A stretch of 24,521 nucleotides of DNA from a virus, in the IMG/VR virus record IMGVR_UViG_3300045049_000251, positions 1-24,521 of that record; one strand, given 5' to 3'. Below are positions 1,703 through 24,521 of the stretch, piece by piece. A program made the translations under genes and the position numbers. Under the pieces are notes generated by a model. The model had not been told where the DNA came from and ran no database searches. It saw only the letters and a program-made list of their open reading frames with translations. Each line of letters begins with the position of its first letter. The first letter of the stretch is position 1.

Positions 1703-2271
1703 GCCGTTCCCAAACCGCCTGCATCACCGCGATCCGCCGCCACTTCCGCGACACCGGATGCGCGCCGAGCATGGGTGACCTGTCCCGATATCTGCGTTGC
1801 TCTCGCCAGCGCGCCTGTGAGCTTGCGTCCCAACTGGAGCGCGCCGGTCTGATCACCCGTCGCCGCGGCGAACCCCTCTCGATCCGATTGGTGAAGGTTA
1901 TGGGCAACTTCAGCGACGACGATCTGGTGCATCAGCTTACCGCGATCACCGAGGAGTTGATCCAGCGCGGGGTCGACGTTCGGGTCGCATCCGCCTCGGT
2001 CGCCCTCAAAAAGTCGTTCCCCTTGACACTTTTGGAACACGACAGGGTCGATCCGGACGCGGATATTCTCGCTCGATTGGAGAGCGGGGATGGGCATGGC
2101 AGCGAAGCAGGACGAGCCGACACCGACACAGCGAATGGCGCGCAATCGCCTGTCGCAGTTGCCGCCGCGCAAACCGTTCGACCGGCAAGCCAAGCTGAAG
2201 CAGGCAGCCCAGCGCGAGGAAGCGCGGGTCGCATCGATCCTCGCCAAGGACCAACCGCCCGCGCCGCCTAA
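1693..2271 (+). CDS. winged-helix DNA-binding protein (LexA N-domain-like)
   Basis: From ATG 1693 the frame encodes 192 residues. Residues 1-67 form a helix-turn-helix with wing: RSQTACITAIRRHFRDTGCA, then PSMGDLSRYL, a recognition helix CSRQRACELASQLERAGLI and a wing RRRGEPLSIRLV. This resembles the LexA/MarR type. A central helix-rich stretch (NFSDDDLVHQLTAITEELIQRG) follows, and the last ~60 residues are Ala/Gly/Arg-rich and of low complexity. The final 182 nt overlap the next gene in another frame, so the C-terminal tail may be real dual coding or an artefact of a lost stop or a frameshift. Likely a phage transcription regulator; target unknown. Confidence 0.7.
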   Translation: MPLSRSQTACITAIRRHFRDTGCAPSMGDLSRYLRCSRQRACELASQLERAGLITRRRGEPLSIRLVKVMGNFSDDDLVHQLTAITEELIQRGVDVRVASASVALKKSFPLTLLEHDRVDPDADILARLESGDGHGSEAGRADTDTANGAQSPVAVAAAQTVRPASQAEAGSPARGSAGRIDPRQGPTARAA

Positions 2272-3139
2272 GAAGGGGAAGAAAGGCGCGAAACAGGCGC
2301 CCGCGATCGATCCGACACCGGAATGGCTGCGGCGCTACGAAAACGCCTGCCGCAAGGAGAACCCGACCACGGCGTCCGGCTATGCGATGGCCGAGCGTCC
2401 GATCTACCGGAAGCACCCCTGGTTCGAGAGCCTGTGTGGGCGCGATGACTCGTTCACCGACGAAGACCTCTACGCGCTGCGCTACTACCGGAACACCTAC
2501 GAGGCGGCGCAGCGGTCCGAGACGAAGTGCTCGCTGGCGTCGATGGTGCACGGATCCGGCACGCCGAGCGAGGACGGCAGCTTTCGGTTGCTGCGTCTGC
2601 GCGACCGCCTGGCCGAAATCGAGCGGGCATTGAAGGGCGCGCTCCATACCGTCCGTGCCATCGCGATCGAGGATCTGACCTACGAGCAGGTGGCGATGGG
2701 CCGATATGGTTATCGCTATGCCGAATATTTCGACGCGGCATCCGGCAAGCTGGAATATCGCCCGCGGCCGAAGTCGGGCCGGCACCCGACGAACATCAAG
2801 ATCGAGTTCATTGCTGGCGTGCGGGTGCTGACGGCGGCGGTGCTGGGAATCTCCAACGCCCCGGCAAACGCCAACGGCTCGGCACCGGCTGACACTCCGC
2901 CAACCGGAATGTCGATCACCGAAAGCCTGCAGGACGCCATCGCCAAGCGAGGCGCGGCCGGCCGGGTCGTCCATTCGATAATTCTCGCCCAGTCGGTGAT
3001 GGACGCGATCTGCCGCGAGAACGACGTCGACCCCGCCGATCTGGAAAGCTTTCAGACCGTTGCCTTCCGGGGAACGCCTGTAACGATCCGCGAGGACTGG
3101 CCATGGGGCTGGGTGTTGCAAGATGGGGAGATGGAATGA
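2090..3139 (+). CDS. hypothetical phage protein with basic linker, 349 aa
   Basis: Start ATG 2090 has a GGAG Shine-Dalgarno at 2079-2082 with 7-nt spacing. The N-terminal ~85 residues are Lys/Pro/Gln-rich and probably disordered (QPPAPPKKGKKGAKQAPAID). A folded region follows (EWLRRYENACRK, HPWFESLCGRDDSFTDEDLYALRYYRNTYEAAQ). A central segment, LRLRDRLAEIERALKGALH then EDLTYEQVAMGRYG, has the look of a helical DNA-binding protein such as phage late regulators, but I cannot assign it. The gene ends in an ATGA overlap with the double-HTH gene. Function unknown; being next to two DNA-binding proteins hints at a regulatory or replication-linked role. Confidence 0.75.
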   Translation: MGMAAKQDEPTPTQRMARNRLSQLPPRKPFDRQAKLKQAAQREEARVASILAKDQPPAPPKKGKKGAKQAPAIDPTPEWLRRYENACRKENPTTASGYAMAERPIYRKHPWFESLCGRDDSFTDEDLYALRYYRNTYEAAQRSETKCSLASMVHGSGTPSEDGSFRLLRLRDRLAEIERALKGALHTVRAIAIEDLTYEQVAMGRYGYRYAEYFDAASGKLEYRPRPKSGRHPTNIKIEFIAGVRVLTAAVLGISNAPANANGSAPADTPPTGMSITESLQDAIAKRGAAGRVVHSIILAQSVMDAICRENDVDPADLESFQTVAFRGTPVTIREDWPWGWVLQDGEME

Positions 3140-3687
3140 TGGGCCAAGCGGCCGTTCGTTCCATCCCATGCGACCTCGCCCGCATGTGCGCCACACTCCA
3201 CGCGGCTGGCCTGATGCGGCATTACGACGTGTCCAACTCGACGATCCGACGTTGGCTGAGTGAGACAGGCCTGTCGCCAGCACCGAGGCCGAAGCAGGAA
3301 AGTCCGAAACGGCGTCCGATCCCTGACGATTGGGCGCAGGTTACCCCCACGCTGGCCGCCAGAGCGCTTGCCGACCATTACTCCGTCAGCCTCTCGCTCA
3401 TCAATCGCTGGGCCAAGGAGAGTGGGGTACGGCCGAAGCGGGCGCCAAAAGGACGACTGCCGGGCTCGATCATCGCCTCCGTGCCGCAGGTTGATGCCAG
3501 CCTCGCCGCCAGAGCCGCACAGCATCTCCGCCGTCGGCACATCGTCTACCACTGCGCGGTCCTGCCCGCCCATGAGCGCCGTGGCCTGCCGAACAAGGGC
3601 CGCGACCACTGGTACGTGAATGGCCGTGGCGCACTTCCCGCAGCCGACATGATCGCGCTGGCCGAGCAGACGGGATTCCAGGCATGA
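3136..3687 (+). CDS. double helix-turn-helix putative regulator, 183 aa
   Basis: ATG 3136 overlaps the upstream stop and has a GGGGAG ribosome site at 3125-3130. Two similar HTH units are visible: residues ~24-48 (AGLMRHYDVSNSTIRRWLSE) and ~74-100 (ARALADHYSVSLSLINRWAKES), each with the pattern L..HY.VS...I.RW..E.G. An Arg/Lys/Pro-rich linker separates them. The C-terminal third (AARAAQHLRRRHIVYHCAV to ALPAADMIALAEQTGF) looks like another small domain. The tandem HTH arrangement suggests a DNA-binding protein contacting two half-sites, perhaps a middle or late gene regulator. The DNA-binding assignment is an inference from the HTH pattern. Confidence 0.75.
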   Translation: MMGQAAVRSIPCDLARMCATLHAAGLMRHYDVSNSTIRRWLSETGLSPAPRPKQESPKRRPIPDDWAQVTPTLAARALADHYSVSLSLINRWAKESGVRPKRAPKGRLPGSIIASVPQVDASLAARAAQHLRRRHIVYHCAVLPAHERRGLPNKGRDHWYVNGRGALPAADMIALAEQTGFQA

Positions 3688-3953
3688 CCGGGCTTGTCGC
3701 TGACCTGACCGCCGCGCTGGAGCGGCACCACAACCGCCCGCTGGATGCCACCATGGAGGTGCCGATCGGGCTGGTGAAGGCAGCTCGCACGATGCTGGAG
3801 CGGTATGAGGGGTGGCCGCTGGTGGATCGGCCGCTGCATCCGGAATTCGTCGACTTGGCCACATCGCCGCGCAGGGGTGGTGGGAAGTGCGCGAGCTTGT
3901 GTGCGGCGCAGACGAGACGGCGGGAGCGGGAGCGCATGGAGCGGGGAGCATGA
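3684..3953 (+). CDS. hypothetical phage protein, 89 aa
   Basis: ATG 3684 overlaps the previous stop (ATGA), and the frame ends in an ATGA overlap with the following gene. The first ~55 residues look structured (MTGLVADLTAALERHHNRPL, GLVKAARTMLERYEGWPLV). The tail is Arg-rich (QTRRRERERMERGA), and its Glu/Arg repeat comes from the purine-rich GGGAGCGGGAGCG tract that may also supply the ribosome site of the next gene. No family recognised. Confidence 0.65.
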   Translation: MTGLVADLTAALERHHNRPLDATMEVPIGLVKAARTMLERYEGWPLVDRPLHPEFVDLATSPRRGGGKCASLCAAQTRRRERERMERGA

Positions 3954-4279
3954 TTTGGAGTAGACGCAAGCGCAGCTTCGGCGCAGCGATCTGCGGCCAT
4001 TGCGGCACGTGGATTCTGCCCGGCGAAACTCATTCTTGCCCTGGACTGCGCGCTGCGATGGCGCATCCGTCTGGCTATGCCCTGCCTCGCGAGCCCCTGC
4101 GTGTCCCGATGCCCGGCCGCAAACGCTGGCCTGCGATCGAGTTGCATTATCGGCTCTTGAAATCCGATGGGAGACTCTGTGGCGCTCGTGTCAACCCGCA
4201 CGTAGCGCAAGGGGTCGCACGATACCTCCGAAAGGTTGGCGTGCCTATCGTCGCCCTCATCAAGGTCACGCCGAAGTGA
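3950..4279 (+). CDS. hypothetical phage protein with CCHC cluster, 109 aa
   Basis: Starts at ATG 3950 within the preceding stop and ends in a GTGA overlap. Residues 15-30 read CGHCGTWILPGETHSC, giving Cys15, Cys18, His28 and Cys30, a plausible zinc-binding knuckle. The rest is basic (PGRKRWPAIELHYRLLKSDG; ARYLRKVGVPIVALIKV). This suggests a small nucleic-acid- or protein-binding zinc protein, but zinc binding is inferred from residue spacing only and I recognise no named family. Confidence 0.65.
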   Translation: MIWSRRKRSFGAAICGHCGTWILPGETHSCPGLRAAMAHPSGYALPREPLRVPMPGRKRWPAIELHYRLLKSDGRLCGARVNPHVAQGVARYLRKVGVPIVALIKVTPK

Positions 4280-4455
4280 CCCGCACCATCGTCTCCGCCC
4301 GCCGCACCGACCGCTCGACGCTGATCAAGCTCGACTGCGGGCATGAGCGGTCGCTGGGCGGGCATCGGTTTTTCAACGGGGCGATGGCTGAGCCGGAATG
4401 GATAATTGGGCGGTCGTACGATTGCCAGGATGGGAATTGTGGGAGGCGACCATGA
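4276..4455 (+). CDS. zinc-ribbon-like mini-protein, 59 aa
   Basis: GTG 4276 overlaps the upstream stop as GTGA and the end overlaps the next gene as ATGA. The product has Cys21/His23 (LDCGH) and Cys50/Cys55 (YDCQDGNC), a layout common in tiny phage and mobile-element zinc-ribbon-like proteins that have a beta-hairpin between the two ligand pairs. The N terminus is basic (RTIVSARRTDRSTLIK). Metal binding is inferred; function unknown. The small size makes this depend largely on the unbroken overlap chain. Confidence 0.6.
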   Translation: MTRTIVSARRTDRSTLIKLDCGHERSLGGHRFFNGAMAEPEWIIGRSYDCQDGNCGRRP

Positions 4456-4643
4456 GCGGCGAAGGGATGATACCGGCGGATAGTGCGTGGCAGCCGTATG
4501 ACGTTGGCCGCCCCGAATTCCGGGTTGAGTACTTGGCGGTTCCCCGCACACTGCGCGCCACCGATCTGTCCGGCGCGCACACCGCCATGTTCGGCAGCTA
4601 TCGCGAGGATGGCACGCTGCGCACGATCAGGCCGCGGCGATGA
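4452..4643 (+). CDS. hypothetical small phage protein, 63 aa
   Basis: ATG 4452 overlaps the previous stop and has a GGGAGG ribosome site just upstream (4441-4446). The frame ends at TGA 4641-4643 in an ATGA overlap. The soluble product begins MSGEGMIPADSAWQPYDVG and ends in a basic TLRTIRPRR tail. No motif recognised; support comes from start-stop coupling on both sides and GC-rich third positions. Confidence 0.6.
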   Translation: MSGEGMIPADSAWQPYDVGRPEFRVEYLAVPRTLRATDLSGAHTAMFGSYREDGTLRTIRPRR

Positions 4644-4912
4644 GACCCGAGATCGAGATCGAAGGTCTGCGCGTCGTCATGACCTGCGGCGTCTGCCCTG
4701 AGCAATACGACGTTTTCAGCGGCGATTGGCAGGTCGGCTATCTGCGGCTTCGGCATGGCAAGTTCCGGGCCGACGTGCCGGAGTGCGGCGGCGAGACGGT
4801 CTATTCCGCTGAACCCGAGGGGCAAGGTGAGTTCGAAGAGCACGAGCGTGCGACTTACCTGCTCACCGCGATACTGGCGATCAAGGCACATCTGCGGGCG
4901 CGGTTTGCGTGA
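4640..4912 (+). CDS. hypothetical phage protein, 90 aa
   Basis: ATG 4640 overlaps the preceding stop, and the end overlaps the following GTG start (GTGA). The protein starts with beta-type sequence (EIEIEGLRVVMTCGVCPEQY), continues with VGYLRLRHGKFRADVPECGG, and ends in a helix (ERATYLLTAILAIKAHLRAR). A CGVC pair at residues 16-19 and Cys49 are present, but no His partner is obvious. It looks like a compact alpha/beta protein of unknown role. Confidence 0.65.
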   Translation: MRPEIEIEGLRVVMTCGVCPEQYDVFSGDWQVGYLRLRHGKFRADVPECGGETVYSAEPEGQGEFEEHERATYLLTAILAIKAHLRARFA

Positions 4913-5061
4913 CATTCAAACAGCGCCACCTATGCATCGCCGCCATCCTGCTCGTGCTCGCACTATGCACGCCATCCATGTTCCTAGGCTTCCTCGCCGC
5001 AGCCCTCGCCCTTGGCAACCTCGCCTGCGCGGCGCATGAGGAAGCGGAGGAGAGGTGGTAG
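4909..5061 (+). CDS. small membrane protein, 50 aa
   Basis: GTG 4909 overlaps the preceding TGA (GTGA) and the frame runs to TAG 5059-5061. After a basic start (MTFKQRHLC) there are two adjacent hydrophobic stretches, IAAILLVLALCTPSMFLG and FLAAALALGNLACAA, and an acidic tail (HEEAEERW). This reads as a one- or two-pass membrane protein with the basic N terminus inside. A lipobox reading (LALC) is weak because Leu precedes Cys. It is the last member of the coupled early gene train. It could be a holin-like or superinfection-exclusion protein; neither is supported beyond topology. Confidence 0.55.
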   Translation: MTFKQRHLCIAAILLVLALCTPSMFLGFLAAALALGNLACAAHEEAEERW

Positions 5062-5062
5062 T

Positions 5063-5120
5063 GCACTTGACATCGGGGTAGCCGGCCAGTAGTTTCGTGA
5101 AATCCTGAAATTGTTGCGCC
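5063..5120 (+). repeat. two-copy regulatory element, copy 1
   Basis: Compared with 20828-20885, this copy matches at 15 of 17 bases in its first part (GCACTTnnCATCGGGGT) and 16 of 19 in its last part (ATCCTGAAATnGTTGnGnnC). The ~22 nt between, covering the -10, are mostly unlike. The distance between the two blocks is identical in both copies (31 nt from CATCGGGGT to ATCCTGAAA). A hairpin follows directly in both. Confidence 0.6.
5067..5095 (+). promoter_or_regulatory. candidate promoter for the glycosyltransferase/late unit
   Basis: TTGACA at 5067-5072 is a perfect sigma-70 -35 box, followed 17 nt later by TAGTTT at 5090-5095, a poor -10. It sits immediately after the last early gene and upstream of a 180-nt leader. 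The same layout recurs at 20832-20860 with a conserved CATCGGGGT in the spacer, which supports a real regulatory site. The weak -10 would fit an activator-dependent promoter. Confidence 0.5.
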
Positions 5121-5147
5121 CGGGCCGGATAACCGCTCGGGCATTTT
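5118..5147 (+). terminator. hairpin followed by ATTTT: possible terminator or attenuator
   Basis: GCCCG (5118-5122) pairs with CGGGC (5138-5142), with an inner CGG/CCG pairing (5126-5128 with 5133-5135) closing an ATAA loop; ATTTTC follows. The T run is short, so termination would be weak. It directly follows the candidate transcription start, so it may act as an attenuator of the glycosyltransferase leader. Confidence 0.35.
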
Positions 5148-5276
5148 CGTATCTGGCGTCCAGAAGATCGCCAGACAGCCGACCGACTCCGGGGGGATAG
5201 GTTGGCACCGGCGGACTGGACTTAAGCCTCCACGGGCCGCCGGGTTGATCAAGCTGAACGTGATGCAGGAGCCCTT
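5148..5276 (+). promoter_or_regulatory. structured untranslated leader of the glycosyltransferase gene
   Basis: No credible gene is present here. Two perfect inverted repeats can fold in the RNA: TCTGGCG (5152-5158) with CGCCAGA (5169-5175), loop 10 nt; and CCGGCGG (5208-5214) with CCGCCGG (5237-5243), loop 22 nt containing CTTAAG. With the hairpin at 5118-5142 this makes three stem-loops in about 130 nt of leader. An AGGAG ribosome site precedes ATG 5277. It does not match a riboswitch or tRNA that I can recognise. Confidence 0.4.
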
Positions 5277-6311
5277 ATGTCCCGGCCCCTGCGCGTCCTG
5301 TTCCTGCTCAAGCGCCGTGAGTTCGCGCCGACCTTCAACTGCGAGACCTACGCGTACAGCCGCTCCTCCGGGTTGCTGAACAGCGTCCGGTTCGTAGTCG
5401 ACATGCTCAACGATCAGGGCCATGACGCCATTCTCGAAGAGTGTGTCGACAACAACTGCATCGATCGGCTCGTCACGCAGCATCGGCCGACGCACGTCGT
5501 CCTTGAGGCTCTTTGGGTCGTTCCGGAAAAGCTCGAAATCCTCAAGCGGCTGCATCCGACCGTCACTTGGATCGTGCGCCTGCACAGCGAAGTTCCGTTC
5601 ATCGCCAACGAGGGCATCGCCTGCGAGTGGCTGTACGGCTATCGCGACCGCGGCGTCCTGATCAACGCCAACAGCGAGCGGATGTGCCGGGCGGAGCGGA
5701 TCGCGCTCGGTGTGCCGGTCAGCTACTCGCCGAACTATTATCCGGTCGAATGCGAGCCGCGCTGGCAGCACCGCCAACGCGATCAAATCGACATCGGCTG
5801 CTTCGGTGCCGTCCGCCCGCTCAAGAACCACCTGATCCAGGCCAAGGCCGCAATTGCCTACGCCGATCGCCATTCGAAGAAGCTGCGGTTCCACATCAAC
5901 GCCAGCCGAGCCGAGGGCAATGGCGGCCCGGTGCTGAAAAACCTGCGCGCCCTATTCGCCGGCTCGTATCACGACTTGATCGAACATGAGTGGCTGCCGC
6001 ACGACCAGTTCCGCAGGCTTTGCGCCGAAATGGATCTGATCCTGCAGGTCAGCTTCACCGAGACGTTCAACATCGTGGTTGCTGACGCCGTCGCGGAAGG
6101 CGTGCCGGTGGTGACCTCGAAAGAGATACGGTTCATCGCCTGCCCGTTCACTGCGTCGCCGGTCGACATCGACGGGATCATTCGCGCGATGGGCCGGGCA
6201 ATGTTCGCCGCCCGCTATGGGCTGCACGAGATCAATTACGCGCTCCTGCGCCGGAACGCCGTCCGCGCCGTCCGTGCCTGGGGACGCCTGCTGGCCGACC
6301 TGGCCCGCTGA
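5277..6311 (+). CDS. GT-B (GT4-like) glycosyltransferase
   Basis: The 344-residue protein has the two-domain GT-B layout. The N-terminal half begins with a Rossmann-type strand (PLRVLFLLKRREF). The C-terminal half opens with IDIGCFGAVRPLKNHLIQAK (171-190), the phosphate-loop region, and contains SFTETFNIVVADAVAEGVPV (259-278), the donor-binding E-x7-E motif as Glu262-x7-Asp270. Such enzymes transfer sugars from nucleotide donors to glycans, proteins or modified bases. There is no membrane segment or signal peptide. An AGGAG site lies upstream of ATG 5277, and candidate promoter and hairpins precede it. It sits alone between the early train and the packaging genes, so virion, DNA or host-surface glycosylation are all possible; the acceptor is unknown. 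Confidence 0.82.
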   Translation: MSRPLRVLFLLKRREFAPTFNCETYAYSRSSGLLNSVRFVVDMLNDQGHDAILEECVDNNCIDRLVTQHRPTHVVLEALWVVPEKLEILKRLHPTVTWIVRLHSEVPFIANEGIACEWLYGYRDRGVLINANSERMCRAERIALGVPVSYSPNYYPVECEPRWQHRQRDQIDIGCFGAVRPLKNHLIQAKAAIAYADRHSKKLRFHINASRAEGNGGPVLKNLRALFAGSYHDLIEHEWLPHDQFRRLCAEMDLILQVSFTETFNIVVADAVAEGVPVVTSKEIRFIACPFTASPVDIDGIIRAMGRAMFAARYGLHEINYALLRRNAVRAVRAWGRLLADLAR

Positions 6312-17957: not shown

Positions 17958-18082
17958 CGGATCCAGCCAGCCGCGATTGCGACCATGATACCGAAGAAGG
18001 CCATGATCAGCAGGCCGCCCAAGAGGGCGAGCGTTGCGCCGAGCGCGTGCATGTGGCCTTTATCGTGGCTGCAGGGGGTCAT
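17954..18082 (-). CDS. small membrane protein at the end of the toxin-antitoxin operon, 42 aa
   Basis: On the minus strand the antitoxin stop TGA (18081-18079) overlaps an ATG at 18082 as ATGA, preceded by a GAAGG ribosome site 7 nt upstream. The product is MTPCSHDKGHMHALGATLAL followed by a hydrophobic span (ALLGGLLIMAFFGIMVAIAA) and GWIR: one membrane helix with a short His-rich N terminus. Translational coupling suggests co-expression with HigBA. The stop CTA (17954-17956) overlaps the stop of the convergent late gene. Function unknown; third genes are not a standard part of HigBA modules. Confidence 0.6.
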   Translation of the reverse strand: MTPCSHDKGHMHALGATLALLGGLLIMAFFGIMVAIAAGWIR

Positions 18083-18375
18083 ACGTCAGCCTTCTCGATA
18101 ATGCGCTGCACTCCTTCAGGATCGGCCTCAATCATCTTGAGCAAGGTGACCGACCCAGTGTCAGGCACGCGCCGTCCCTGCTCCCAATCGCGCACCGTTG
18201 CCGCCTTGAAGTGGAACGTGCGGGCAAAAGCCTCCTGAGTAAGCTTGGTCCGCCCACGAATAGCGCGCACGTCAGGGCCGGCGACCATCCGCCCGCGGGT
18301 GGCGTCACCTCGCATATACGCGGTGGCATCCGCGATCCCCGCCATGATGCCGTTGAAATCCTCAGCGTCCATCAT
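18079..18375 (-). CDS. higA: HigA-type antitoxin / HTH repressor
   Basis: ATG 18375 overlaps the toxin stop (ATGA) and has an AAGGAG ribosome site 5 nt upstream; GTG 18381 and ATG 18372 are alternative starts. The 98-residue product has a Xre-family HTH in its C-terminal half: DVRAIRGRTKLTQEAFARTF, HFKAATVRDWEQGRRVPDTG, then LLKMIEADPEGVQRII. This is the layout of HigA/NadS antitoxins paired with RelE/HigB toxins. It should neutralise the upstream toxin and repress the operon through the twin palindromes at 18727-18775. Confidence 0.85.
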   Translation of the reverse strand: MMDAEDFNGIMAGIADATAYMRGDATRGRMVAGPDVRAIRGRTKLTQEAFARTFHFKAATVRDWEQGRRVPDTGSVTLLKMIEADPEGVQRIIEKADV

Positions 18376-18716
18376 TTGCACTCCTTCTTCAGTTCCGTGA
18401 TTGCCTTTTTAAACGCCGCCTTCTGCTCGTCGGTGAGCGCCGCGTCCCTTGACTTGTCGATGATCCACAGCAGGAAGACAGGGTTGCGTTCGTCTGCAAA
18501 GAAGCTGAACACGCGATAGCCGCCGCTTTTGCCGGTCTCATCTTTTGCGATGCGCCCCTTGCGCAGGCCGCCGGTGCCGGGCTCGACAGCGCCATAATTA
18601 GGGTTGGCGGCATATGCGTCGTAGATTGCGCCGCGTTCGCTATCGCTGACACCCAGCTTCGCGAGCTGGGTAGTGAATGCCTTGGTCTCGACAGTGGTGT
18701 GGGTCGGCGCCTTCAT
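18372..18716 (-). CDS. higB: HigB/RelE-superfamily toxin
   Basis: The 114-residue product from ATG 18716 matches the RelE/HigB (PF06296-type) toxin pattern: TKAFTTQLAKLGVSDSERGA, GGLRKGRIAKDETGKSGGYR, VFSFFADERNPVFLLWIIDK and TDEQKAAFKKAITELKKE. Such toxins usually cleave translated mRNA at the ribosome. It precedes the antitoxin gene, the reverse order typical of higBA. No Shine-Dalgarno is visible before ATG 18716, and the predicted promoter places the start of transcription at or next to the A of the ATG, so the message may be leaderless. The frame continues upstream through the operators but has no other plausible start. Confidence 0.87.
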   Translation of the reverse strand: MKAPTHTTVETKAFTTQLAKLGVSDSERGAIYDAYAANPNYGAVEPGTGGLRKGRIAKDETGKSGGYRVFSFFADERNPVFLLWIIDKSRDAALTDEQKAAFKKAITELKKECK

Positions 18717-18723
18717 GGGGACA

Positions 18724-18752
18724 GAAATACGGCATTGCCGTATGTCAGTCAA
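18724..18752 (-). promoter_or_regulatory. toxin-antitoxin promoter
   Basis: On the minus strand TTGACT (18752-18747) and TATTTC (18729-18724) are separated by 17 nt. The -10 overlaps the proximal operator and the -35 lies between the operators. Transcription would begin about 7 nt further on, at 18716-18717, next to the toxin ATG. Confidence 0.6.
18727..18743. promoter_or_regulatory. operator palindrome O1 (toxin-antitoxin)
   Basis: ATACGGCA-T-TGCCGTAT is a perfect 17-nt palindrome immediately upstream of the toxin gene and overlapping the predicted -10. It is the expected binding site for the HTH antitoxin dimer. Confidence 0.85.
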
Positions 18753-18760
18753 CCGAAAAC

Positions 18761-18775
18761 TACGGCATTGCCGTA
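18761..18775. promoter_or_regulatory. operator palindrome O2 (toxin-antitoxin)
   Basis: TACGGCA-T-TGCCGTA repeats the core of O1 perfectly. The centres (18735 and 18768) are 33 nt apart, about three helical turns, so two dimers would bind the same face of the DNA. The -35 box lies between the sites. Confidence 0.85.
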
Positions 18776-18778
18776 TTT

Positions 18779-18982
18779 TTACCCCAGCAGCGTCACCGCC
18801 ACCACGGCGAAGCCCAGCGCGACGCCGCCCCAGATCAGCATCATCGCCCAGCCAAACAGACCCCAGCGGAGCGTGAGCCCGAGCCAGTCCCGGGGCGGTC
18901 GAACGACACGAAAGAGCGGCGGGTGCGGCACGAATGCCCACCGATCAGCTGCCCAGGTCTGAACCCTTTGGAGTTGCCGCAT
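18779..18982 (-). CDS. putative small membrane protein, 67 aa
   Basis: The minus-strand frame from ATG 18982 to TAA 18781-18779 encodes a basic, Pro/Trp-rich N-terminal part (LFRVVRPPRDWLGLTLRWGL) and a hydrophobic C terminus (FGWAMMLIWGGVALGFAVVA, then VTLLG), one or two membrane helices. The second half has strongly GC-rich third codon positions on this strand. The AAGGA upstream of ATG 18982 is too close to be ideal; GTG 18931 is an alternative start. The ATG shares CATG with the divergent tape measure start. No plus-strand gene explains these 200 nt. It ends next to operator O2. Function unknown. Confidence 0.5.
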   Translation of the reverse strand: MRQLQRVQTWAADRWAFVPHPPLFRVVRPPRDWLGLTLRWGLFGWAMMLIWGGVALGFAVVAVTLLG

Positions 18983-20828
18983 GTCCTTCGCTTATAGCGT
19001 CGCCATCAAGCTGACGGTAGCGAATCTTGCGAGCCAGGGCGTGCGCATGCTCGCCAAGGACTTGCTGGCTGCTCACGGGAGCGCTGTCAGCCTCGGCGAC
19101 AAGCTCAAAGCTCTGAAAATGATCGCCGTCGGCTACGGCATGGAAAAAGCCGGCCAGGGCATGCTAGGCTTCATGGGCAAGGCGATCGACGCGTCGAAGG
19201 AATATACGCGTCAGCTGTCGCTAATGAACGCGGCCGGCATGTCGCACCTCGAGGTTGCCCGCGCCACGGCCGCTGCCTGGCAGACCAGCCGCGATGTCGT
19301 GACGACCTCGGCCGCCGAGAACCTGAAGGCGATCCGCGAACTGCGCTCGGTGTTCGGTGCCGGCGGCATGGGCGAGGCTTATCGGATCCTGCCGACCGTC
19401 CAGCGCACCAAGAGCATTCTCGACGCTCTGACCGGCCGCGAGAACGAAGGCGTGGCCTTCGATATGGTCAAGGCGATCGAGCTGCGCACGCCCGGCCTCA
19501 TGTCCTCGGCGCGCATGCAGTCGAACGCCGACCTGATGGCGCGGGCGCTGATGGCCATGGGCGGCACGCTGAACGCCCACGATTTTCACATGACGCTGAA
19601 GCAGTCGAAGACAGCCGCGTTCGGGCTGTCAGACGACTTCGTTTACAACTACTTGCCGACGCTGATCCAAGAGGTGAAGACCGGCGCGAGTGGGTCAGGC
19701 TCGACCGCCGGTACGGCGCTGATGTCGACTTATTCCGCGATAATCGGGGGCGTGCTGAAGAAATCAGCGATCCCGCTGTGGGAAGCGATGGGCCTGATCA
19801 GCCCGTCGAGCGTGGTCAAGAATTCCACCGGTGCGCTTCAGTTGAAGCCTGGCGCGGTGCGTGGATCTGCGCTGTTCCAATCGAATCCATACGCTTGGGC
19901 GAACGAGGTTCTGGCGCCGGCCATTGCCGCCTACGGCAAATCACATGGTCTGAACCGCGAGCAGGTTATCTCTGGCATGTTCGGCAATCGCAACGCTCAG
20001 TGGCTGATGAACACGCTGATCGCCAAGGCGCCGCAGTTCGAGCGAGACCGCAAGCTGATCGAAAGTGGCGGCAACTCGTACCAGACCTACCAACGCCTGC
20101 TGAAGACGAACCCACAGCTGGCCGGGACGGCGATGCACAACCAGTGGCAGAACGTGCTGTCGATCCTCGGCTATCAGGTGCTGCCGAAGCTCATCCCATG
20201 GATGATCAAGTTCGCGAACGGTCTCGATCGCATTGGCCAGTTCATGGAGCGTCACCCCAATTTGACCGCCGGGCTGGCGATCGGACTTCTCGGTGTCGGC
20301 TCCGCGCTCATTGTGGTCGGCAAAGCCCTCATGACGATCGGGATCATGAAGTTTCTCGGCATGGGCCCGATGATCGGCGGTCTCATGCGCGCGATCGGCA
20401 CGGGCATCATGTTCCTGGGGCGGGCGCTATTCGCCAACCCGATTGGGCTCGTCCTGCTCGCTATCGGCGTCGCGGCTTACGAGGTCTATCAGCACTGGGA
20501 CTGGATCTCGAAGAAACTGAGCACGGTCTGGACGTTCTTGAAGTCGTCCTTCTTCGGCTTCATCAATGGCCTGATCGACCTCGCGAACCACATCCCGTTC
20601 GTGCACCTCAACCACATCGGCGGCGGTGCGCCACAGAGCTCATACGTTCCTCCCGCTCACAAAATGGAGCAGCGCGGCGGCGACGTCTATCTGGACGGAA
20701 AGAAGGTCGGCAAGGCCTTGTCGCCCTACCTGACCGGACACTTCGCGAACGACATGTCGCGCCCGAACCGCGGCACGTCAGTGTTCGACGGCACGCGGGG
20801 CCCGCTGCGGCCCGCGACTGCGCGATAG
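18981..20828 (+). CDS. tail tape measure protein
   Basis: TGGAG (18969-18973) precedes ATG 18981 by 7 nt. The 615-residue product follows the chaperone frame-pair, as tape measure genes do. It begins with helical, Ala-rich sequence (LTVANLASQGVRMLAKDLLA, MLGFMGKAIDASKEYTRQLS) and has hydrophobic segments near ~427-450 (LTAGLAIGLLGVGSALIVVG) and ~485-503 (ANPIGLVLLAIGVAAYEVY), typical membrane-active parts. Using the general ~1.5 A per residue rule, the tail would be about 90 nm. The C-terminal ~60 residues are Gly/Pro-rich and polar. It sets tail length and is ejected at infection. Confidence 0.88.
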   Translation: MSFAYSVAIKLTVANLASQGVRMLAKDLLAAHGSAVSLGDKLKALKMIAVGYGMEKAGQGMLGFMGKAIDASKEYTRQLSLMNAAGMSHLEVARATAAAWQTSRDVVTTSAAENLKAIRELRSVFGAGGMGEAYRILPTVQRTKSILDALTGRENEGVAFDMVKAIELRTPGLMSSARMQSNADLMARALMAMGGTLNAHDFHMTLKQSKTAAFGLSDDFVYNYLPTLIQEVKTGASGSGSTAGTALMSTYSAIIGGVLKKSAIPLWEAMGLISPSSVVKNSTGALQLKPGAVRGSALFQSNPYAWANEVLAPAIAAYGKSHGLNREQVISGMFGNRNAQWLMNTLIAKAPQFERDRKLIESGGNSYQTYQRLLKTNPQLAGTAMHNQWQNVLSILGYQVLPKLIPWMIKFANGLDRIGQFMERHPNLTAGLAIGLLGVGSALIVVGKALMTIGIMKFLGMGPMIGGLMRAIGTGIMFLGRALFANPIGLVLLAIGVAAYEVYQHWDWISKKLSTVWTFLKSSFFGFINGLIDLANHIPFVHLNHIGGGAPQSSYVPPAHKMEQRGGDVYLDGKKVGKALSPYLTGHFANDMSRPNRGTSVFDGTRGPLRPATAR

Positions 20829-20885
20829 CACTTCCCATCGGGGTCATTTCGCCCTATAGATCAGGCATCCTGAAATCGTTGTGTC
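20828..20885 (+). repeat. two-copy regulatory element, copy 2
   Basis: This copy aligns without gaps to 5063-5120 (offset 15,765). GCACTTCCCATCGGGGT and ATCCTGAAATCGTTGTGTC match copy 1 at 15/17 and 16/19 positions, with the middle divergent. It occupies most of the 107-nt gap between the tape measure and hub-adaptor genes. Divergence in the middle and conservation at both ends point to protein or RNA contacts instead of a recent duplication. Confidence 0.6.
20832..20860 (+). promoter_or_regulatory. candidate promoter for the baseplate/tailspike genes
   Basis: TTCCCA (20832-20837) and TATAGA (20855-20860) are 17 nt apart, in the same register as TTGACA/TAGTTT in copy 1. Here the -10 is good and the -35 weak, the reverse of copy 1, which would suit an activator acting on the shared CATCGGGGT. 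Confidence 0.45.
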
Positions 20886-20886
20886 C

Positions 20887-20905
20887 GCGGGCGAGCAATC
20901 GCCGC
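20887..20905 (+). promoter_or_regulatory. leader hairpin with GNRA-type loop
   Basis: GCGG (20887-20890) and CGA (20892-20894) pair with TCG (20899-20901) and CCGC (20902-20905) around a GCAA loop, with one bulged G. The hairpin directly follows repeat copy 2, just as another follows copy 1, and precedes the ribosome site of the next gene. No T tract follows, so it is not a terminator. Confidence 0.45.
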
Positions 20906-20935
20906 TGACCATGCGTGCGCGTGGAGGGCCGTTTC

Positions 20936-21988
20936 ATGCCCGACACGACGCTGCAGCTCGGCGATTTTGTCTTCTCGCGGTTCGAGGTGCCGGAGGAAAT
21001 CCCCTTCGGCGGCGACCAGAAACTGATCGTCCATGAGCTGATCGGCGGCGTCCGCGTGGTCGATGCGATGGGCGATCAGCCAACGGCGCTGGACTGGTCC
21101 GGAATCTTCGTCGGCCAGGACGCGCTAGATCGGGCACTATATCTCGACGGGCAGCGCAAGGCCGGGCATGCGCTGTCGCTGACCTGGAGCGGTCTGCGCT
21201 TCACCGTCGTCATTCGGGCGCTCAACTGCTCGTTCCGCCGATTCTACCGGCTACCATACCGGATCACCTGTGAGGTGGTCAGCGATGACACGGCGCCGGT
21301 CCTGGCGGCGAACAATCCGGCCGCCGAGCAGCTGATCACGGACGACCTGGCCTCGGCGAATACGGTTGCCGCCGCGATCAACGACGATCCGCTGTCGGGG
21401 CTGATGGCGACACTGAATTCGGCGGTCGCGGCTGCTGGATCGCTCCACGACGCCACGTCGCGGGTCATTCTCGGCATCGAGGCACCGCTCAACGCCGTCA
21501 GGTCGCGCATTTCGGCGCTGATCACCGCCGGCGGCCAGTTGATCGACGATGCCGCATCCGTCGGCGGTATTGTCTCAGGCGGCTTGATCACCGCGCAAGT
21601 GAACGCGCTCTCCGCGCAGATCGACGCGATTGGCACGGGCCCATCGCTCCTGTCTCTCGACCGGCTGCTCGGCCGTATCGACAAGAATATCCGCTCACTG
21701 AATGCCGGCACACGGACACGCACGGCAGTCGGCGGCAACCTCTTCGAAATCGCGGCCAAGGAATATGGCAATTCCGCCGCATGGGCGACGATCGCGCTGG
21801 CGAACGGACTCACCGATCCGTGGATCCAGCAGGTCGCAACACTCGCAATCCCGCCGGATGGGAACGAGGCCGCAGGCCTGTCCTACCCGAACGCGGCGGA
21901 CTTTATCCCGGCATACCCCGACGACGCGCTGATCGACGTCAACGAGTTCGTCGCCGAGCCGGTCACCACGATTCTGGAGGACGGTTGA
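20936..21988 (+). CDS. LysM-type baseplate hub adaptor (XkdP / Mu gp43-like)
   Basis: GGAGGG (20923-20928) lies 7 nt before ATG 20936, preferred over the in-frame GTG 20915. The 350-residue protein starts TTLQLGDFVFSRFEVPEEIP and contains beta-rich sequence resembling the N-terminal domain of phage tail proteins such as gpU or the Mu gp43 type. It has a helical middle (~145-250) and a LysM-like segment near 265-312 (GGNLFEIAAKEYGNSAAWAT, then IQQVATLAIPP). In contractile-tail phages this protein follows the tape measure and links it to the hub. The family assignment is by order and LysM pattern. Confidence 0.72.
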   Translation: MPDTTLQLGDFVFSRFEVPEEIPFGGDQKLIVHELIGGVRVVDAMGDQPTALDWSGIFVGQDALDRALYLDGQRKAGHALSLTWSGLRFTVVIRALNCSFRRFYRLPYRITCEVVSDDTAPVLAANNPAAEQLITDDLASANTVAAAINDDPLSGLMATLNSAVAAAGSLHDATSRVILGIEAPLNAVRSRISALITAGGQLIDDAASVGGIVSGGLITAQVNALSAQIDAIGTGPSLLSLDRLLGRIDKNIRSLNAGTRTRTAVGGNLFEIAAKEYGNSAAWATIALANGLTDPWIQQVATLAIPPDGNEAAGLSYPNAADFIPAYPDDALIDVNEFVAEPVTTILEDG

Positions 21989-23451
21989 TGACCAGGCTGC
22001 TTAGCCGCTCCCCCACCTTTCAGGCGCTCGATAATCGGGTTGGCGCGCTGGAGCTCGGCGGATCGAGAGTCTTGAACGCCCTAAATTATGGGGCCGCCGC
22101 GAACGGGGTCGATGACGACGCGGACACACTCCTGCAGGCTCTCGCGAAATTGTCCGGCTCGGGTGGCCGACTCTACCTTCCGGCCGGCTATTACAAGATC
22201 ACGAAAGCTCTCTGGGCTGCGTTTTCGAACATCATCATCGAAGGTGACGGGCGCGGCGCGACTGTGCTGCAACCCTATGGGTGGATCGATGCGGTTCGGT
22301 TTGCAAATGGCTACCCGGGCCCAGCGGGCGTGATTTCCAATGTCGGAATCCTCAATCTAACGATCGACTGTGGAAATCAGACGGCGGGAACCGACGATAC
22401 TAATGGTAACGGCATCAATTTCAACGATTGCGACAACTTTCTCTGCCAGAATGTGGAGATACTGAGTGTCAAGCAACAGGGTGTAGCGATAACCTATTTC
22501 CCGGTTTCCGGCTCTGTGCCTAAAGGTGGTGAAGTCCGAAACTGCTTTGTTGACCTAGGGTCGTCGAATAACATTGGCATCGGTGCCGAAGGAAACGCTC
22601 GCAAGATCGCCTTTTGCGGAAATCATATTGAAAATGTCGGCAGTTCCGTGGCCCTCTACTCCGGCAATGTGGGCAGTAGCGGCGCGGCCGGAGACGTGAT
22701 CATCTCCGACAATTTCGTTCTTGGACGGGCTGGCAATGTCGGTCGCGGCGTCACTATCGAGGACGGGGCGCGGCGGGTCATCGTCTCGGCGAACATCATC
22801 ACCAGCATGTCCCAAGGAATCCGGGCCGCAGTTGTTGGCGGCACAAACAATAGTTACAACTTCGTTATCTCATCGAACATCGTCACCGATTTCAGCCAGT
22901 ATGGGATCGGTGTCGGGCCGCAGGTCCCTGGGGACTATGCGCAAGCCCTTTGCGTCGGCAATACGGTCGTCACGACGAATGTCACAGCAACTGAGGGAAT
23001 TCTCTCCTTCGGGGGGGCAACGATCACGGCGAACTTGGTTGATTATGGCGGTTCTGCATGTGGGATCGCGGTAACGGGCTCGAGTACGAACATATCGGGC
23101 AATACCGTCCGTGGTACCGCAGGCTTCGCTATCGATGTTTCAATGGCCACGAACTCGGCCGTCTTCGGGAACTATTGCAATCGCGATATCAGCAATCCAG
23201 CTGATCCAGTTGCTGCCAATATCCAGATTTATGGCAATCTCGGATATTCGACACAACGTTGGTATACCGGCTACATCGGCGTCAACAAATCAGTTCCCAA
23301 TCCGAATGGCAATAGCGCGCCCACGTCTGGAACTTGGGCGCAAGATGACAAGGTTTGGAACAACAGCGTTTCTTCAGGTGGCTATATCGGGTATGTCTGC
23401 ACGGCATCTGGCACACCTGGCACTTGGAAAGCCTTCGGATTGATCGCGTAG
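21988..23451 (+). CDS. tailspike with pectate-lyase-type beta-helix
   Basis: ATG 21988 overlaps the previous stop (TGATG). The 487-residue protein has a short N-terminal anchor (~1-28), then VLNALNYGAAANGVDDDADT and GGRLYLPAGYYKITKALWAA, hallmark of Pectate_lyase_3/right-handed beta-helix tailspikes. Long runs of Asn/Gly/Val/Ile coils follow (NGINFNDCDNFLCQNVEILS, VSANIITSMSQGIRAAVVGG). The C-terminal domain (SAPTSGTWAQDDKVWNNSVS, then GYIGYVCTASGTPGTW) is common in phage fibres. It should bind and perhaps degrade a host surface polysaccharide. Base composition drops in GC from about 22300 on, unlike the flanking tail genes, indicating separate acquisition. Catalytic residues are not assignable. 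Confidence 0.85.
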   Translation: MTRLLSRSPTFQALDNRVGALELGGSRVLNALNYGAAANGVDDDADTLLQALAKLSGSGGRLYLPAGYYKITKALWAAFSNIIIEGDGRGATVLQPYGWIDAVRFANGYPGPAGVISNVGILNLTIDCGNQTAGTDDTNGNGINFNDCDNFLCQNVEILSVKQQGVAITYFPVSGSVPKGGEVRNCFVDLGSSNNIGIGAEGNARKIAFCGNHIENVGSSVALYSGNVGSSGAAGDVIISDNFVLGRAGNVGRGVTIEDGARRVIVSANIITSMSQGIRAAVVGGTNNSYNFVISSNIVTDFSQYGIGVGPQVPGDYAQALCVGNTVVTTNVTATEGILSFGGATITANLVDYGGSACGIAVTGSSTNISGNTVRGTAGFAIDVSMATNSAVFGNYCNRDISNPADPVAANIQIYGNLGYSTQRWYTGYIGVNKSVPNPNGNSAPTSGTWAQDDKVWNNSVSSGGYIGYVCTASGTPGTWKAFGLIA

Positions 23452-23497
23452 GTTGTAAATTGCCATCCAGATCTATTCTACATCCTTTGGAGCCCAC

Positions 23498-24133
23498 CTA
23501 ATGGGTGCGCTGTGCTTGCATCCACTCCTGCATGCCCTGAGGGTCGAAATAACTTTCCCTGATTTCTGGATTATCCCAATAAGCTTGATCCCGCTCGCGG
23601 GTGTCGCCTACCACTACAGCGGGCGCTCCGCGGGCAATCGCGAAGTCGGGAACGTCTTTCGTCACGACTGATCCAGCCGCGATCATGGCTCCTTTACCAA
23701 TAGTCACGCCGGGAAGAATGACGGCTCCTGCGCCGACAAAGGTAAAATCTCCGATGGTGACAGCGCCGCGAGCATATCCCTTGCGTTCTGTGTGATCGAT
23801 CTGGATGAAGTGGTCGCCGTGCAGCCTTAAAGCGTTATGGCTGCCGTGGGAAAATATACCGACCGAGGAACAGATTTGAGCCCCGCGGCCAATCGTCACG
23901 CCATTGCTGCCGTCGATGAAGGTGTGATGGGATATCCAGACGTGATCGCCGATGGATATGCCTTTCTTACAACTCAAGACGGCGCTGGAACTGATCCGAG
24001 TGAACTTCCGCCAAGCGCGGCTGGGAACGTCCCTGTATCCATAGGCCATGAAGGGCCTATGCGCGAATGCGAACAAGTTCATCGCGAACGAAATCGCTCG
24101 GCCTAGTGGCGACAAGTAAAGCCTGCGCAGCAT
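23498..24133 (-). CDS. hexapeptide-repeat O-acyltransferase (LbH family)
   Basis: The 211-residue protein has the left-handed beta-helix hexapeptide pattern (ISIGDHVWISHHTFIDGSNG, VTIGRGAQICSSVGIFSHGS, VTIGDFTFVGAGAVILPGVT, IGKGAMIAAGSVVTKDVPDF), as in WcaF/NodL-type acetyltransferases; His in SHGSHN is a likely catalytic-region residue. I choose ATG 24133 because GGAAGG lies 7 nt upstream; the longer open frame to 24418 overlaps the plus-strand hub gene. It is convergent with the tailspike and probably O-acetylates host surface glycan, perhaps altering the receptor after infection. The N-terminal hydrophobic stretch (AISFAMNLFAFAH) may associate with membrane. Confidence 0.85.
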   Translation of the reverse strand: MLRRLYLSPLGRAISFAMNLFAFAHRPFMAYGYRDVPSRAWRKFTRISSSAVLSCKKGISIGDHVWISHHTFIDGSNGVTIGRGAQICSSVGIFSHGSHNALRLHGDHFIQIDHTERKGYARGAVTIGDFTFVGAGAVILPGVTIGKGAMIAAGSVVTKDVPDFAIARGAPAVVVGDTRERDQAYWDNPEIRESYFDPQGMQEWMQAQRTH

Positions 24134-24170
24134 TATCATTCCTTCCAGTGATAGCGGCCTAGCCACGGAA

Positions 24171-24211
24171 CTAGCGACCGAATGCGAGAATTGTCCAGCC
24201 TGTGTCGCTAG
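24171..24211. repeat. inverted repeat in the divergent acyltransferase/hub intergenic region
   Basis: CTAGCGAC (24171-24178) and GTCGCTAG (24204-24211) are perfect 8-bp arms 25 nt apart. A second, overlapping pairing exists between GCGGCCTAG (24154-24162) and CTAGGGCCGC (24208-24217, one extra G). The position upstream of the minus-strand acyltransferase suggests an operator or leader structure. Confidence 0.45.
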
Positions 24212-24268
24212 GGCCGCCGATGCGAGTCCAACTCGCGCGCTCGCCAAAGATCGGAGGGCGGCCCGAAA

Positions 24269-24521
24269 ATGCCAACCGCTCCCCGGCAACCCCGCGCACG
24301 CCGCCCCCGCGGCGCGATCAATCTCAACGGCAAGATCGTCTGGGGCTGGATCAGTTGGGAAGTCGACAACAACAATTTCCGCAGCGCCGACACGTTCAGG
24401 GTCGAGTTTGCGCTCCACGGACTGCCCAGCGGATATGGCGTCGACTGGTTCGCGGCGCAGGCATCGCTTCAGGTTGAGATATTCGCGACCGAGGATTGGA
24501 TCGGCAGCGGCGTATATGCGC
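24269..24521 (+). CDS. baseplate hub protein (XkdQ / Mu gp44-like), 5' end (partial)
   Basis: ATG 24269, with GGAGGG at 24252-24257, opens a frame that leaves the window. After a basic, Arg/Pro-rich N terminus (MPTAPRQPRARRPRGAINLN) it reads GKIVWGWISWEVDNNNFRSA and DTFRVEFALHGLPSGYGVDW, then VEIFATEDW, the opening beta-barrel pattern of gpD/gp27-like contractile-tail hub proteins such as Mu gp44 or PBSX XkdQ. It would form the central baseplate ring beneath the tube. The assignment uses ~84 residues and gene order, so it is probable, not certain. Confidence 0.65.
   Translation, partial: MPTAPRQPRARRPRGAINLNGKIVWGWISWEVDNNNFRSADTFRVEFALHGLPSGYGVDWFAAQASLQVEIFATEDWIGSGVYA

Follow-up and report, generated by a model that had tools for sequence, protein, structure and literature searches.

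What purpose is served by a short sequence that stands twice, on one strand and with one internal spacing, in a fragment of a phage genome? The fragment is IMG/VR record IMGVR_UViG_3300045049_000251, and the whole stretch analysed (24,521 nt) is referred to here as the window. An earlier note had described a duplicated promoter-like element in two intergenic gaps and had proposed that it is a phage-encoded regulon signal, with copy 1 leading to glycosyltransferase and packaging genes and copy 2 to hub and tailspike genes.

Position and structure of the repeat

The two copies lie at 5063-5120 and 20828-20885, exactly where they had been placed. Block 1, GCACTTnnCATCGGGGT, is matched without mismatch at 5063 and 20828, its only two sites in the window, and ATCCTGAAATnGTTGnGnnC, taken from block 2, has two exact matches, at 5102 and 20867. 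Joined as one pattern, both blocks match exactly twice, and this search found no third copy in the window. Block 2 has the common form ATCCTGAAATnGTTGYG at identical spacing from block 1, the offset from CATCGGGG to ATCCTG being 31 nt in both copies. The 22-nt middle between the blocks is divergent, with a copy-to-copy match no higher than chance level, and the previously described architecture of fixed offset and diverged middle is thus confirmed. Ungapped comparison of the copies gives 38 identical columns of 62, almost all inside the two blocks; when one gap is allowed, the likeness extends into the hairpin. Copy 1 starts 1 nt past the TAG stop (5061) of a 50-aa ORF and copy 2 on the last base (20828) of the tape-measure TAG stop. 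The features of the two loci are listed below, all on the + strand.

4909-5061: 50-aa ORF with a hydrophobic stretch and a GTG start, read directly from the sequence; TAG 1 nt before copy 1; no family match
5063-5142: element copy 1 (putative promoter, conserved transcribed segment, hairpin), from sequence
5067-5095: copy 1 sigma70-like promoter TTGACA-17-TAGTTT, rank 3 of 48,962; TCGGGGT at 5073-5079 (-29 to -23)
5102-5118: copy 1 inferred +1 to +17, ATCCTGAAATTGTTGCG; AATCCT at -1 to +5, TGCG at +14 to +17
5118-5142: copy 1 hairpin followed by ATTTTCGT, terminator-like; -16.8 kcal/mol
5143-5276: hairpin-rich leader ahead of the glycosyltransferase (predicted folds)
5277-6311: glycosyltransferase, accessory (moron) gene; relatives in unrelated phage contexts
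6394-8137: small and large terminase genes, downstream of copy 1
18981-20828: tape-measure gene; copy 2 starts within its TAG stop, on the last base
20828-20909: element copy 2, from sequence
20832-20860: copy 2 sigma70-like promoter TTCCCA-17-TATAGA, rank 33 of 48,962; TCGGGGT at 20838-20844
20867-20883: copy 2 inferred +1 to +17, ATCCTGAAATCGTTGTG; -10-like CATCCT, pause-like TGTG
20883-20909: copy 2 weaker hairpin, no T tract; -14.0 kcal/mol
20936-21988: hub/baseplate gene; own ribosome site GGAGGG; phrog_21362 at 4e-98, weak baseplate/LysM-region matches
21985-23451: tailspike or tail-fibre-like gene, accessory here; weak tail-fibre matches, insertion by comparison

The first chance test, plain identity over 58 nt, did not set the observed pair beyond shuffles. 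Its place was taken by a block test, which asks for two windows on one diagonal, one of 17 nt matching at 15 or more positions and one of 20 nt matching at 17 or more; with these thresholds, which were fitted to the observed pair, the window yields one pair and 60 third-order Markov shuffles yield none. Applied to 59 real related loci, the block test returned, among the matches listed (no more than four pairs for any locus), repeats within coding sequence and a few coincidences in coding regions, and no promoter-like intergenic pair. The duplicated repeat is real.

The promoter reading and the putative transcribed segment

Both strands of the window (48,962 positions) were scored with an approximate E. 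coli sigma70 matrix, which ranks the copy 1 hexamers 3rd and those of copy 2 33rd. They share one register, and the 17-bp spacing of both lies within the 16-18 bp expected for sigma70. Neither promoter is picked up by a simple consensus scan, whose rules are stricter. Block 1 spans the -35 box and upper spacer (about -39 to -23), with TCGGGGT kept at -29 to -23 in both copies and the remainder of the spacer not kept. Sigma70 transcripts begin 6-8 nt past the -10 box. When +1 is set seven bases past its end, transcription would start at 5102 and 20867, on the A of ATCCTGAAAT, and block 2 would be the first 17 transcribed bases. The placing of block 1 over the -35 box and spacer, and of block 2 at this inferred start, is borne out. 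Both -10 boxes sit inside the divergent middle; the co-positioned promoter-like hexamers are therefore not a by-product of the repeat, and a promoter is the best reading.

We put the probability that each copy is a sigma70-type promoter with a conserved initially transcribed leader at roughly three in four. The best explanation for each copy is a cassette of ~80 bp in which a phage promoter is joined to a conserved initially transcribed segment and a hairpin, and the duplicated cassette is probably functional. Judged by its sequence, the element, probably a promoter with a conserved transcript start, would seem to switch on late or host-modifying genes. That the repeat is instead a DNA site unrelated to transcription (a mobile-element end, or a recombination or replication site) seems most improbable: copy 2 does lie within an inserted stretch, but no terminal inverted repeats or target duplication were noticed, no copies occur elsewhere, both copies are oriented as the genes are, and the promoter hexamers are in register.

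Given the inferred start, nATCCT at -1 to +5 would be a -10-like hexamer in both copies, by a test that ~10% of positions pass by chance. TGYG at +14 to +17 resembles the end of the pause consensus in both copies; the strict signal G-10 Y-1 G+1 is not present, with Y-1/G+1 falling at +16/+17 and the G at -11. The -10-like and pause-like features occur jointly at 0.2% of window positions, a figure that overstates the case and is a guide only, as both were defined after the sequence was seen. The hairpin begins near +17. The earlier note had a hairpin follow both copies directly, and this stands for copy 1, whose hairpin is strong and has a terminator-like tail that includes ATTTT. It is absent from the list of a simple terminator scan, probably owing to a bulge. 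For copy 2 the claim holds less well: the hairpin is weaker, lacks a T tract, and the leader folds no better than shuffles (z 0.26). The copy 1 leader (178 nt, 5102-5279) has several predicted hairpins (z -2.2).

Might the conserved blocks act as RNA? Seven pairs are possible between them, UCGGGGU with AUCCUGA, and copy 1 folds so. A structured RNA element is nevertheless very unlikely, since by our own estimate ~0.16 such helices are expected by chance for blocks of this length, copy 2 folds differently, the fold z-scores are -1.1 and -0.8, and the promoter reading leaves block 1 outside the transcript. No Rfam model reached its gathering score either; the best, NsiR1 (22.7 bits against a cut-off of 39), was set aside as mere hairpin resemblance. 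A tRNA search returned nothing.

A possible antitermination mechanism

An activator or antitermination site at the element, as the earlier note had suggested, is plausible but unproven. Of the full mechanisms we prefer antitermination, which we hold tentatively and at somewhat less than even odds. Host RNA polymerase would start at ATCCTGAAAT; nATCCT, together with the TGYG pause signal ending near +16, would briefly hold sigma and polymerase; and a phage protein bound at CATCGGGGT, between -35 and -10, would load onto the paused enzyme. The loaded polymerase could then read through the nearby downstream hairpin and subsequent terminators, in the manner of Q at late promoters and of AlpA at alpB. 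By this route copy 1 would switch on the glycosyltransferase and the packaging and late genes, and copy 2 the hub and the added tailspike.

The kept parts and their order (site, promoter, -10-like sequence, pause, hairpin) suggest a fit to the antitermination promoters used by Q at pR' and by AlpA. Such promoters combine a site in the -35/-10 spacer with a -10-like sequence among the first transcribed bases, followed by a terminator (PMC6606751, PMC9371919, PMC7969949), and the parts kept here, the -35 and upper spacer and +1 to +17, are of the kind that matters in them. The requirement in these papers is a -10-like sequence, not the G-10 Y-1 G+1 signal, and sigma pauses at +16 to +20 that use -10-like sequences are widespread in E. 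coli (PMC7876045). Likeness to the Q late promoters of lambda and 21 (pR') extends to the -10-like early transcribed sequence and, putatively, to a protein site between -35 and -10 and a downstream terminator (PMC6606751). Unlike that system, this one has two promoters rather than one, its copy 2 lacks a terminator, and no Q gene was recognised; for the 21Q subsites the essential C:G pairs are at -21 and -13 (PMC6606751), downstream of the kept spacer block at -29 to -23. The AlpA promoters of Pseudomonas aeruginosa (alpB and PA0807) resemble the pair in being two and, putatively, in a short spacer element and early terminators (PMC7969949, PMC9371919), which under AlpA control start at +26 and +54 (PMC7969949). 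The alpB promoter has its -10-like hexamer, CACGAT, at -1 to +5, the same register as nATCCT here (PMC9371919, PMC7969949). However, the AlpA element is GGGACG, whereas TCGGGGT lies next to the -35 box, and no AlpA-like protein was recognised.

Family searches among the genes of 2090-5061 in this fragmentary record gave no Q- or AlpA-like match; antiterminator proteins have little sequence in common (PMC9371919). The best helix-turn-helix (HTH) candidate, the 3136-3687 protein, has an AlphaFold pLDDT of 35, and its model is unusable. Against antitermination stands the copy 2 hairpin without a T tract, to be set beside the copy 1 hairpin with its ATTTT. With two copies in existence, conservation cannot be used as a check. 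We regard as quite unlikely the more far-reaching version, in which an undescribed antitermination factor with two loading promoters would have had its second site planted between tape-measure and hub, letting the factor control the hub and an acquired tailspike and splitting an otherwise uninterrupted tail operon.

Activated promoters offer another model: MotA boxes stand in for the -35 of T4 middle promoters. Here, an activator or repressor site over the -35 box would be served by the 17-nt block at about -39 to -23, with the conserved start of the transcript either having a part in promoter escape or serving as a second operator at a distance of three helical turns. The 31-bp offset is indeed about three DNA turns, and the weak -35 box of copy 2 (TTCCCA) is of a kind frequent in activated promoters. 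The model is nonetheless doubtful: copy 1, with the consensus TTGACA, should need no activator, there is neither palindrome nor direct repeat to mark an operator, and a simple activator leaves the kept transcribed segment without a role. It ranks directly behind antitermination, ahead of a moron-type or PeSL-like promoter, then an RNA element and last an unrelated repeat.

Gene neighbourhood and distribution

The gene assignments downstream of both copies are supported, and the gene set is that of a contractile-tailed phage, not T4-like. Loci for comparison came from a sheath search (77 viral, 11 genome) and from capsid and tape-measure searches (35 more). In 66 of 84 related loci, some of them the same contig, no more than 21 nt separates the tape-measure stop from the hub start; in most of the other 18 the gap is 31-69 nt, and many of these belong to a branch whose upstream ORF is shorter (~300 aa). 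In the window the gap is 107 nt and houses copy 2. This comparison identifies copy 2 as an apparent lineage-specific insertion between two tail genes that normally touch.

Between the hub stop and the baseplate gene that follows, the distance is -19 to +183 nt in 62 relatives and 2280 nt in the window. This 2.3-kb stretch (21985-24418) holds the tailspike-like gene and a reverse-strand hexapeptide acyltransferase, and is missing in the 62 relatives. Relatives of the glycosyltransferase adjoin T4-like DNA polymerase and replication genes and occur in other unrelated phage contexts, which argues that the gene is accessory and mobile. With an accessory glycosyltransferase after copy 1 and the inserted tailspike and acyltransferase after copy 2, both copies lie near accessory genes of a surface-glycan type, and the element is probably a selected promoter cassette beside such genes.

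Two kinds of cassette invite comparison. The moron promoters of temperate phages combine an own promoter and a hairpin beside a horizontally acquired gene, and the PeSL cassettes of T4-like phages are short promoters with a stem-loop, repeated between genes beside accessory genes. On either model, an unregulated host-type promoter and stem-loop would have been carried with, or recombined beside, the glycosyltransferase, tailspike and acyltransferase and would give them their own expression, perhaps in the lysogen. Both copies do lie near accessory insertions, directly at stop codons, copy 2 is in a gap missing from most relatives, and, as in morons, an own promoter and hairpin stand beside an acquired gene. 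Unlike a moron promoter, the element also precedes a core baseplate gene, the hub, and has a conserved transcribed segment; the kept spacer block and first 17 bases, with a middle at chance level, are left unexplained. As in PeSL (references cited in PMC4503421), a promoter with stem-loop is repeated here, but in two copies only; the T4-like genome and early-promoter consensus expected of PeSL were not found, the gene set being that of a different contractile-tailed phage, nor is there any sign that copy 2 marked surrounding recombination. Such a cassette is unlikely.

Trees group the window's tape measure with L082 and L113 and its hub with L005, L007, L009, L012, L082 and others. The stretch 18981-21988 is a mosaic, in that tape measure and hub differ in their nearest relatives, a combination that L082, an Acetobacteraceae MAG, has in common. 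Copy 2 as a marker of tape-measure/hub recombination was dropped, since L082 has both lineages without the element.

The element has no orthologous copy in the relatives searched, an outcome that the earlier note had named as refuting. Up to 3 mismatches, it is absent from the whole records of 29 relatives, from 7 genomes with relatives and from 299 genomes of the bacterial family of L082, and, with as many as 9 mismatches allowed, it is missing from every locus of the IMG/VR sheath, capsid and tape-measure searches. IMG/VR and GTDB contigs, collections that may omit records very near the window, were scanned for exact matches and yielded one, L003, which lies within a coding gene and was put down to chance. 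When the copy 1 region was compared by BLAST with phages and plasmids, no useful hit came back, and IMG/VR scans with the hub and HTH proteins gave no relatives, those of the hub being reached via sheath loci. Within the data compared, the cassette is unique to this record. The proposal of a conserved regulon signal is not supported; the missing copies weaken it rather than overturn it, because the record is fragmentary and copy 2 appears to be an insertion specific to its lineage.

If antitermination holds, a phage late-gene control element would have been copied into the middle of a tail operon together with an accessory receptor-binding gene. The two promoters would also be a well-defined starting point for identifying a new antiterminator among relatives of alphaproteobacterial phages, where few such factors are known. 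A moron promoter would be ordinary, yet would document accessory genes gaining an expression signal of their own. The cassette is interesting as a lead, and not remarkable as it stands.

Two further observations concern the neighbouring genes. A RelE-like toxin and HTH antitoxin pair (18079-18941, - strand), which contains the palindrome TACGGCATTGCCGTA at 18761-18775, lies immediately upstream of the tape-measure gene. Among the genes that run up to copy 1, 3951-4279 encodes a small protein with a CGHC...C zinc-ribbon-like motif, whose position alone makes it a candidate regulator.
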